Below are positions 18,345 to 22,236 of a stretch of 64,000 nucleotides of DNA, piece by piece (position 1 is the stretch's first letter; each line of letters begins with the position of its first letter). Origin of the DNA: Neisseriaceae bacterium CLB008 (GTDB lineage Bacteria > Pseudomonadota > Gammaproteobacteria > Burkholderiales > Neisseriaceae); contig CP166133.1 in assembly GCA_041228285.1 (NCBI GenBank), positions 2,513,380-2,577,379 on the forward strand. The letters are read 5' to 3'. The position numbers and the translations under genes are program-made. Below the pieces are notes generated by a model, which saw only the letters and a program-made list of their open reading frames with translations, was not told where the DNA came from and did no database searches.

Positions 18345-18935
18345 TTATTCGTCAGAGCCCACTAAAAGCGTGGTGTCGTTAATATACTTGTAAGGTGGAA
18401 TGACTAAGTTAGTTGGAGCAGGTACGCCTTTAAATACGCGACCAGCCAAGTCAAACTTAGAACCGTGACAAGGACAGAAGAAGCCACCTTTCCATTCAGG
18501 ACCTAAATCGGCAGGGGCCAAATCAGGACGGAACGTTGGTGAGCAGCCCAAGTGGGTACAAATACCGATGGCCACAAACAGCTCTGGCTTGATGGAACGC
18601 AGTTCATTTTTACAGTATTCAGGCTGATGCTCTACTTCTGACGCTGGGTCTGCCAACGTGCCATTCAAAGTAGGCAGTTCTTTTTGCTGTTCAGCCGTGC
18701 GGTTAAGCACCCAAACTGGCTTACCTTGCCATTCTACTGTAATTAATTGACCAGATTCTACTTTACTAAAGTCTACTTCTACAGGGGCGCCAGCGGCTTT
18801 AGCACGCTCTGATGGAAACCAGCTGAGCACTAAAGGCGTTGCCACACCCACGGCAGCTGCACCCGCAGCTGCGCCTGTCGCCAAAGTTAAAAACCGGCGG
18901 CGACCTTGATTTACTTGTTGTTGTTGATCATTCAT
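18345..18935 (-). CDS. petA: Ubiquinol-cytochrome c reductase, Rieske iron-sulfur subunit
   Basis: Carries the 2Fe-2S cluster of complex III. It has 196 residues. The N-terminus has a twin-arginine motif (GRRRFLTLA, residues 11-19) and a single Ala/Val-rich membrane anchor, as usual for Tat-exported Rieske proteins. Cluster ligands are in CTHLGCSPTF and CPCHGSKFD. It is first gene of petABC; a possible -10 TAGAAT (complement of 18983-18988) lies about 50 bases upstream. Confidence 0.97.
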   Translation of the reverse strand: MNDQQQQVNQGRRRFLTLATGAAAGAAAVGVATPLVLSWFPSERAKAAGAPVEVDFSKVESGQLITVEWQGKPVWVLNRTAEQQKELPTLNGTLADPASEVEHQPEYCKNELRSIKPELFVAIGICTHLGCSPTFRPDLAPADLGPEWKGGFFCPCHGSKFDLAGRVFKGVPAPTNLVIPPYKYINDTTLLVGSDE

Positions 18936-19055: not shown

Positions 19056-19802
19056 TTAAACAGGGTTTTGTTCATCGAAAAACTGGCAGGGAATGTCAAA
19101 GGTTTGATTAATTGCTTCACCTAAAGCCTGAACCCCAAAGCGCTCGGTTGCGTGATGACCCGCCGAAATAAAGGCCACATCGCATTCTTGCGCTAAATGG
19201 TATTGAGCTTCAGACACCTCTCCAGTAATAAACGCATCCACACCCAAATCAATGGCGGTTTGGAAATACCCCTGCGCCCCACCCGTACACCATGCCAGCT
19301 TATTAATGACCTTATCAGGCCGCCCCAAACCCAAAGGCTTACGCCCAAGGCTGGTTTCAAGCTGGCTTAAAAATACCGTTAATGAACAGGCTGCTTGAGC
19401 ATGACCCAGCATCAGCAGGTTTTGATCACCCACCTGAGCTTCTATCTCCCAACCGCACACGCGTGCGAGCTGGGCATTATTGCCCAAAGTCTCATGTGCA
19501 TCCAGCGGCAAATGAAAGCCCACCATATTGATGTCGTGCGCCAACAAGGCCGCAATGCGCTGCTTTTTCCAGCCAATGATGGGCACGGGCTCACTCTTCC
19601 AAAACAAGCCGTGGTGAACCAACAGCATGTCCGCCCCCGCCTGAATCGCATAGTCAATGGCGGCCTGGCTGGCGGTCACAGCAGTCACAATTTTATTGAT
19701 CTGGCTGCGGCCTTCAACCTGTAAGCCATTGGGTGCATAATCCTTGTAGCTACTGACGCGCAATACCTCATCGCACCAGGCCAACAACTTTTGCCTATCC
19801 AT
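19056..19802 (-). CDS. Nif3-like dinuclear metal centre protein (GTP cyclohydrolase 1 type 2 homolog)
   Basis: Member of the conserved Nif3/YbgI family, which binds two metal ions in a toroidal hexamer; the physiological reaction is unsettled. It has 248 residues from the ATG at 19802 (MDRQKLLAWCDEVL), which is preceded by GGGA; an ATG four codons earlier (19814) abuts the groEL terminator T-run. Metal ligands are seen in LLVHHGLFW (His63/His64) and near the C-terminus in SAGHHATERFGV. It has no signal peptide. See the separate promoter entry for its unusual start region. Confidence 0.9.
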   Translation of the reverse strand: MDRQKLLAWCDEVLRVSSYKDYAPNGLQVEGRSQINKIVTAVTASQAAIDYAIQAGADMLLVHHGLFWKSEPVPIIGWKKQRIAALLAHDINMVGFHLPLDAHETLGNNAQLARVCGWEIEAQVGDQNLLMLGHAQAACSLTVFLSQLETSLGRKPLGLGRPDKVINKLAWCTGGAQGYFQTAIDLGVDAFITGEVSEAQYHLAQECDVAFISAGHHATERFGVQALGEAINQTFDIPCQFFDEQNPV

Positions 19803-19813
19803 AACAGATCCCA

Positions 19814-19846
19814 TAAAAAAACCCCACCATTATAGTGGGGTTTTGC
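19814..19846 (-). terminator. Terminator of groES-groEL
   Basis: Stem AAAACCCCAC/GTGGGGTTTT with a 7-base loop. On the minus strand it is followed by seven T, about 30 bases after the groEL stop. Confidence 0.92.
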
Positions 19847-19857
19847 GTGCTTGATAA
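19829..19857 (-). promoter_or_regulatory. Putative promoter of the Nif3-like gene inside the groEL terminator
   Basis: On the minus strand a perfect TATAAT (complement of 19829-19834) falls in the loop of the groEL terminator hairpin. A -35-like TTATCA (complement of 19852-19857) lies exactly 17 bases upstream. Transcription would begin near 19822, some 20 bases before the preferred ATG. Confidence 0.5.
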
Positions 19858-19875
19858 GCGTATTGGGCAAAAGAC

Positions 19876-21540
<1,665 letters not shown>

Positions 21541-21576
21541 TCATTTACAGTTTTATCAGTTTGGACAGGGTGAGGC

Positions 21577-21864
21577 TTAAGCCATCACGCCCATGATGTC
21601 TTCTTCACGCATCACCAAAACTTCTTCGCCTTCAACCTTAACGGCCTGGCCTGCATACTTACCGAAAATAACTTTGTCGCCGACTTTAACGTCTAAAGCA
21701 CGACGCTCACCGTTGTCTAGAATCTTGCCATTGCCCACGGCAATGACTTCGCCCATATCAGGCTTTTCGACAGCGGAACCTGCCAATACGATACCTGAAG
21801 CAGTGGTTTCTTCTGCTTCTAAACGTTTAATCACAACACGATCATGTAAAGGACGGATAGACAT
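21577..21864 (-). CDS. groES: 10 kDa co-chaperonin GroES
   Basis: Heptameric lid of the GroEL cage. It has 95 residues from the ATG at 21864 ([19 protein letters not shown]), which has GGAG at proper distance; the frame upstream to 21915 is not coding. The mobile loop ([18 protein letters not shown]) and the C-terminal [13 protein letters not shown] are typical. It is first gene of groESL, with a sigma-32-type promoter about 120 bases upstream. Confidence 0.98.
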
Positions 21865-21981
21865 TAATTTCTCCAAATTAAAAACAGTTAAGGAATTCCA
21901 CACCGTGGCTTTCACTCGTTAAAATCAACACAGCCTGACACGAAGGCCAAAAAACCGTGTTTAACATTCTACATGACGCTT

Positions 21982-22010
21982 ATATCGGGGGGAGTCGCCA
22001 GAATTCAAGT
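21982..22010 (-). promoter_or_regulatory. Sigma-32 (RpoH) heat-shock promoter of groESL
   Basis: On the minus strand ACTTGAA (complement of 22004-22010), a 13-base spacer and CCCCGATAT (complement of 21982-21990) match the RpoH consensus CTTGAAA-N13-15-CCCCATNT well. No CIRCE element (HrcA operator) was seen in the 110-base leader, so control is probably by RpoH. Confidence 0.8.
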
Positions 22011-22088
22011 GATCAAATTCAATTTTTTTCACTTAATCATCAATTGGCCTAAAAACAGCATCACGCCCTTGCTATCGACAGGCAAAGA

Positions 22089-22117
22089 AAAAGCCACGCT
22101 ATTTAGCGTGGCTTTTG
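22089..22117 (-). terminator. Terminator of tRNA-Asn
   Basis: Stem AAAAGCCACGCT/AGCGTGGCTTTT with an ATTT loop, T-rich on the minus-strand side, five bases after the tRNA end. Confidence 0.9.
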
Positions 22118-22121
22118 TATT

Positions 22122-22197
22122 TGGCTCCCCGACCTGGGCTCGAACCAGGGACCTGCGGATTAACAGTCCGTCGCTCTACCGACTGAGCTATCAGGGA
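22122..22197 (-). tRNA. tRNA-Asn(GUU)
   Basis: Minus-strand cloverleaf of 76 bases: acceptor TCCCTGA/TCGGGGA, anticodon region GGACTGTTAATCC with anticodon GTT, T-loop TTCGAGC, discriminator G and encoded CCA. It has a consensus promoter and its own terminator. Confidence 0.97.
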
Positions 22198-22207
22198 ATA
22201 GGAGCGC

Positions 22208-22236
22208 ATTATAGTAAGCCCTTAGCGACTCGTCAA
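22208..22236 (-). promoter_or_regulatory. Promoter of tRNA-Asn
   Basis: Minus-strand -35 TTGACG (complement of 22231-22236), 17-base spacer, perfect -10 TATAAT (complement of 22208-22213), 10 bases before the tRNA. The -35 lies inside the arm of a hairpin that follows rne. Confidence 0.88.

Follow-up and report, generated by a model that had tools for sequence, protein, structure and literature searches.

Can the DNA that ends the transcription of one gene also begin that of the next? The question arises at the boundary between groEL and a nif3-like gene in Neisseriaceae bacterium CLB008, where the hairpin behind groEL has the sequence TATAAT at its tip. We analysed 64,000 nucleotides of this genome (the window, whose numbering is used throughout) together with related loci. 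Within the genus, the comparison covered three species in all: that of the window (genomes G000 and G061, one species), G002 and G001. With moderate confidence, we favour the reading that loss of a spacer merged the groEL terminator and the nif3 promoter into a single dual-use element, as sequence comparison suggests. The features of the locus are as follows.

18345 to 18935, minus strand: gene for the Rieske protein, first member of the cytochrome bc1 genes, 3′ of nif3 (TIGR01416, 232.8 bits)
19056 to 19802, minus strand: nif3-like gene (DUF34/NIF3, YbgI type; PF01784, 217.8 bits; TIGR00486, 197.8 bits)
19809 to 19812, minus strand: GGGA, candidate ribosome-binding site for the ATG at 19802 (from sequence; GGAA in G001)
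19815 to 19821, minus strand: T-run of the terminator, which RNA from the proposed promoter would carry as its first U-tract (from sequence, with a predicted start site)
19818 to 19844, minus strand: putative intrinsic terminator hairpin of groEL, 12 predicted pairs and a UAA triloop (RNAfold; hairpin in 17 relatives)
19822, minus strand: predicted transcription start of nif3, G19822 (placed by spacing)
19829 to 19834, minus strand: TATAAT, proposed -10 of nif3 (consensus scan; identical in 3/3 species)
19852 to 19857, minus strand: TTATCA, weak proposed -35, 4/6 (consensus scan; TTACAA in G001)
19876 to 21519, minus strand: groEL, the upstream gene (open reading frame; TIGR02348 GroEL profile, 833.8 bits)
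21982 to 22009, minus strand: sigma-32-like promoter before groES, CTTGAA-N14-CCCGATAT (by eye, against the sigma-32 consensus)

A hairpin and a proposed promoter in the groEL–nif3 gap

Read along the minus strand, groEL is followed by 31 nt, the hairpin AAAACCCCAC-TATAATG-GTGGGGTTTTTTT, 12 nt and the ATG of nif3 at 19802, the whole gap being 73 nt. A second in-frame ATG of nif3 lies at 19814; the N-termini of relatives favour the one at 19802. The hairpin, AAAACCCCAC-TATAATG-GTGGGGTTTT at 19844–19818, runs into a T-run at 19821–19815 and carries TATAAT (19834–19829) at its tip, with TTATCA (19857–19852) across a 17-nt spacer on the same strand. RNAfold predicted a stem of 12 bp closed by a UAA triloop at -16.4 kcal/mol (z = -4.56), and none of 200 shuffled sequences folded as well. 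The initial annotation had described a 7-base loop that holds a perfect minus-strand TATAAT. The sequence is as described, but the predicted fold closes the tip further than a 7-nt loop, placing TATAAT partly within the stem. A stem of 10 pairs with a 7-nt loop is obtained only by counting as far as the innermost G-C pair and treating G-T pairs and the terminal A-T pair as open. By sequence and predicted fold, the hairpin has the G+C-rich stem and immediate run of seven T that mark a terminator, and its position, 31 nt behind the groEL stop, is conserved. It was absent from the list produced by our terminator scan, we guess because the stem uses part of the T-run.

We found that the promoter-like site scored 10/12 in a consensus scan and has a perfect -10, although six matches of such a score occurred in the surrounding 5 kb against 5.4 (s.d. 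2.6) in shuffles. TTATCA does lie exactly 17 bp upstream of the -10, as previously stated; the hexamer is a weak 4/6 match in which the G of TTG is missing, and arithmetic with equal base frequencies puts a 4/6 match at one of three spacings at about one site in nine. In G001, the alternatives are TTACAA at 17 bp or CTTACA at 18 bp. The spacing predicts a start at G19822, 7 nt past the -10 and at the edge of the T-run. G19822 is the last base before the T-run; the layout first proposed had a start in the T-run and a leader of about 20 bases with GGGA. The end of TATAAT is 26 nt from the ATG at 19802.

Only 12 nt separate the T-run from the nif3 ATG, which leaves no space for a separate nif3 promoter, and by eye there was no other minus-strand -10 candidate from the stem to the ATG. 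Could nif3 instead be served by a promoter elsewhere, in groEL or in nif3 itself, with the hairpin acting as a terminator or as a 3′-end stabiliser of groEL mRNA? Internal promoters are common, and a 9/12 minus-strand match lies within nif3 (19717–19690). However, a transcript started 5′ of the hairpin must cross the terminator, and apart from the TATAAT site the consensus scan found nothing on the minus strand from 19717 to 22208 that reached its threshold. We therefore regard a promoter elsewhere as very improbable.

If the two elements are indeed merged, polymerase arriving from groESL would form the RNA hairpin and stop in the T-run, whereas sigma-70 polymerase would open the same DNA at TATAAT and make nif3 RNA from about G19822. 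The nif3 leader would then be about 20 nt long, the 3′ arm of the stem would act as the discriminator, and the T-run would supply the first transcribed bases. By geometry, the 5′ arm is absent from RNA that starts at G19822, and such RNA cannot fold into the terminator; the predicted fold of its first 43 nt was no more stable than those of shuffled sequences (z = -0.32). We infer each of the steps involved: termination at the hairpin, use of the -10, the place of the start site and spacer loss as the cause.

Related loci and conservation within the genus

Among 80 nif3 loci, nine had groEL: three of the genus, five in which the two genes were adjacent, and L049, in which they lay 3.7 kb apart. 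An order-level search gave nif3 matches in 242 of 399 genomes, and groEL lay upstream in 12 of the best 30, which were the ones checked. The 17 loci used for comparison are five from Chromobacterium/Aquitalea (L050, L051, L053, L055 and L080) and these 12, which fall among L277–L306. By contrast, none of 47 further loci (31 from the family of the window and 16 from other families of the order) had groEL before nif3 in flanks of mostly 1.5–2 kb, shorter at two contig ends.

All 17 relatives have a hairpin 3′ of groEL with the pattern CCCC/GCCC...GGGG/GGGC-T (GCCC once), and a stricter hairpin finder called a terminator in 15 of them, not in L051 or L284. The C-run of the terminator lies at +26 to +40 from the groEL stop in these loci and at +35 in the window. 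The loops, however, are of other kinds (TTCG, CTTG, TACG and so on), and TATAAT occurs in none of the 17. This bears on the idea that TATAAT is weak or vestigial, without effect on nif3 and retained as the tip of the terminator's stem. T1–G7 and A2–T6 of TATAATG can pair and so extend the stem, but the groEL terminator of every relative has another loop, in several cases a tetraloop (TTCG, for example), and we consider a vestigial TATAAT scarcely credible.

The distance from the T-run to the nif3 ATG is 52–156 nt in the 17 relatives, as opposed to 12 nt in the genus of the window. In 15 of them (L050, L051, L053, L055, L080, L277, L279–L282, L284–L287 and L289), this spacer contains TCTGGCANAAT, a motif that we recognised in the alignment and for which the regular expression was written post hoc. 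We read TCTGGCANAAT as an extended -10 element (TGG before CANAAT) and possibly the nif3 promoter of Chromobacterium-type genomes. From the end of the -10-like hexamer to the ATG there are 23–35 nt in 15 of the 17 loci and 80 nt in one, with no match in the last; the 26 nt of the window fall inside the common range. The Chromobacterium/Aquitalea-type loci are therefore like the window in gene order, terminator position, outer stem and distance from -10 to ATG, and differ in having a spacer between the elements, ordinary loops and, in 15/17, TCTGGCANAAT.

Our main argument follows from this comparison: each element holds its distance to its own gene and the DNA between them is missing, which suggests a merged element. 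The separate state appears to be the older one, judging from outgroups rather than from a tree reconstruction. The spacer would have shrunk to 12 nt in this genus, so that the terminator now encloses the nif3 promoter, whose -10 is at the tip. The initial annotation had held that a loop not conserved while the hairpin is would count against the promoter. Formally, that is the state of all 17 relatives, but their spacers are longer and 15 carry a promoter-like element of their own, and the TATAAT of the loop accordingly looks derived in the genus rather than false. The likely dual-use site is known from one locus in one genus, where it is probably derived.

In L285, L286, L287 and L289, we also observed a second strong hairpin (TGCGGCCAACCT...), with ATTGTTTT directly behind it, between the groEL terminator and the promoter-like element of nif3.

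Within the genus, groEL lies directly 5′ of nif3 in 3/3 species, and stem, loop, TATAAT and T-run are identical in all three. The 73-nt gap matches that of the window at 72/73 and 68/73 positions in the two sister species, and is far more conserved across the three species than four-fold sites, at which identity to the sister species is 61/93 and 45/88 in nif3 and 174/262 and 163/258 in groEL. Five positions of the gap differ in G001. The -35 hexamer accounts for two of these and GGGA for one, which counts against the promoter reading. We also compared other terminators of the window with G002. The scan gave 12 rows (11 sites, one of them read on both strands), of which three had no match in the G002 stretch. 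Seven terminators besides that of groEL could be aligned; two kept their loop and five did not, with flank identities from 27/40 to 41/45, and the doubly read site gave a flank of 15/25 in its second reading. For the groEL terminator, the loop was unchanged and the flank matched at 44/45 positions. As the stem has not drifted in the three species available, constraint on the hairpin and constraint on the promoter are inseparable within the genus, and conservation of the tip can partly reflect its pairing in the predicted 12-bp stem.

Beyond the hairpin and the promoter hexamers, positions 19858–19878 (TAAGTCTTTTGCCCAATA), right behind the groEL stop, were also unchanged in the three species.

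The main rival of the dual-use element is read-through from groEL. In this case, the terminator would be leaky, a groES-groEL-nif3 operon would have nif3 as its last gene, and the TATAAT of the loop would be a coincidence. A gap of 73 nt is short and suits co-transcription, and the -35 is both weak and drifting. On the other hand, the hairpin is strong (-16.4 kcal/mol) and followed by seven T, the gap is conserved outside the stem too, and a promoter-like element lies between terminator and nif3 in 15/17 relatives, which points to separate transcription of nif3. We regard read-through as unlikely, though it is a serious contender. The original proposal of a nif3 promoter inside the groEL terminator gains qualified support from the 12-nt gap, the distance from -10 to ATG shared with relatives and the conservation of the gap in three species.

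Chance expectation and similar sites

How often would TATAAT fall in a terminator loop by chance? We used an 864-kb sample of the same genome, made up of the window and 40 stretches of 20 kb on an 80-kb grid, with open reading frames called by length; one stretch, L174, was deliberately shifted off the grid to take in a site near tgt that had already been seen. Between genes, and behind a gene of the same direction, the sample held 185 terminator-like hairpins; 99 preceded another gene of that direction (tandem) and 86 were convergent. From pooled loop letters, the probability of a perfect TATAAT in one 7-nt loop was 0.0013 (0.13%), giving an expectation of 0.15 in the 99 tandem terminators. 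Scaled to about 373 tandem terminators per genome, chance yields about 0.6 TATAAT loops genome-wide. The loop alone thus proves little, and a number of this size suits read-through with a coincidental TATAAT. Two of the 99 tandem hairpins and none of the 86 convergent ones had TATAAT in the loop, the tandem count being biased upward because L174 was picked for the tgt site; apart from the groEL and tgt sites, there were no further TATAAT loops in the sample. A search of the 99 tandem loops, each extended by 4 nt at both ends, for a -10 of at least 5/6 found three on the sense strand and four on the other; terminator loops thus show no enrichment of -10-like sequences. Throughout the genome, TATAATN{4,14}TTTTT matched 30 distinct places, two of which were in terminator-like hairpins (groEL–nif3 and tgt).

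Position, in contrast to the loop, does point to function. In the tandem gaps of the sample, a perfect TATAAT at most 60 nt 5′ of the next gene occurred 20 times on the sense strand versus six times on the other, and with a -35 of at least 4/6 six times versus once, counts that include the groEL and tgt sites. The evidence that the TATAAT may function as a nif3 promoter is comparative, not statistical.

The second site in this genome (L174:12640–12674; about 1552640 of G000:C1) likewise lies between two genes of the same direction, a GNAT acetyltransferase gene and tgt, and its terminator-like hairpin holds a perfect TATAAT in a loop of 16 nt. It differs in that the 5′ arm is broken in G002, where TATAAT and the 3′ arm are kept. 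We read 23 of 25 tgt loci (two of the genus and 21 loci of the family outside it). TATAAT lay within 100 nt 5′ of tgt in 12 of the 21 outside loci, 10 of them at 29–54 nt, compared with 33 nt in the genome of the window, and in none of the 21 was it in a terminator-like hairpin. Since the promoter outlasts the hairpin in G002 and in the 12 family loci with TATAAT, the tgt hairpin looks incidental, and we rejected it as a second case of dual use. It nevertheless makes a -10 inside a terminator-like hairpin credible, and it implies that such dual use may be accidental.

A family-wide search with SSSSSTATAATNSSSSSTTT, in which TATAAT stands between G+C arms, returned 22 matches in 83 genomes, against nine for the reversed pattern; the window's own site was missed by the pattern. 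One of the 22 was in a terminator-like hairpin, at L243.

About 1500 to 1523 of L243 (G075), minus strand: look-alike site, ACCCGC-GTATAATG-GCGGGTTTTT (family pattern search)

At this site, in another genus of the family, TATAAT lies in an 8-nt loop on a G+C stem with a T-run; the next gene, glycosyltransferase-like, follows after about 34 nt. It differs from the groEL site in its genes and in lying about 185 nt behind the preceding same-direction open reading frame. As far as its sequence goes, L243 is a hint that other loci of the family can acquire such an arrangement; one in 22 pattern matches is too few for a recurrent class of TATAAT terminators, and we discarded that idea. Three other candidates were set aside: L251, another of the 22, in which TATAAT is centred in a 14-bp inverted repeat of another kind; L035, the second match of the region in G001 and considered as a copy of a repeated element, where a terminator of different genes shares the type of outer stem but not the loop; and L036, which by eye looks like Met/Gly-rich coding DNA.

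Heat shock and the genes behind groEL

The sigma-32-like sequence before groES makes heat induction of groESL plausible. It was found by eye, by comparison with the sigma-32 consensus; the exact pattern CTTGAAN{11,16}CCCCAT had no match across the window. Heat-shock transcription could possibly interfere with the nif3 promoter, as the initial annotation proposed, or, by analogy with other systems, hand polymerase over to nif3. In two single-molecule studies, polymerase that had terminated at an intrinsic terminator was usually retained on the DNA, from where it could start again at promoters close by (PMC6978322, PMC6978380). Harden et al. 2020 (PMC6978322) raise the possibility that a sense promoter near a terminator couples neighbouring genes, although on their template sense-direction restarts were rare, at less than 2% of retained molecules.

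One form of such coupling would be a relay, in which a polymerase that has released groEL RNA, and already covers the nif3 -10, steps back a few bases, takes up sigma-70 and starts nif3, with the result that heat shock would raise nif3 together with groESL. We consider this relay improbable; it could perhaps also reach the cytochrome bc1 genes behind nif3. As the nif3 RNA would have G(U)7 at its 5′ end, UTP might also influence its initiation by way of slippage, as at codBA and upp. The systems of Harden et al. 2020 (PMC6978322) and Kang et al. 2020 (PMC6978380) likewise have a sense promoter near the site at which polymerase stops. They differ in that retained polymerase is described as sliding or diffusing to the promoter, whereas in the window the proposed -10 lies inside the hairpin and any hand-over of polymerase is hypothetical. 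Literal phrase matching against titles and abstract openings of the open-licence PMC literature found no promoter -10 inside a terminator loop.

If the element is used as proposed, about 40 bp would both stop one gene and start the next, with relatives that display the separated state. It would offer a compact test bed for restart after termination at a nearby sense promoter, a possibility raised in PMC6978322, and for intergenic contraction as a way of merging regulatory elements. The proposed dual-use site is of interest as a test bed and modest as a discovery.

Upstream of groES, the window also contains a tRNA-Asn (gtt) at 22122–22236 with a near-consensus promoter, TTGACG-17-TATAAT (11/12).
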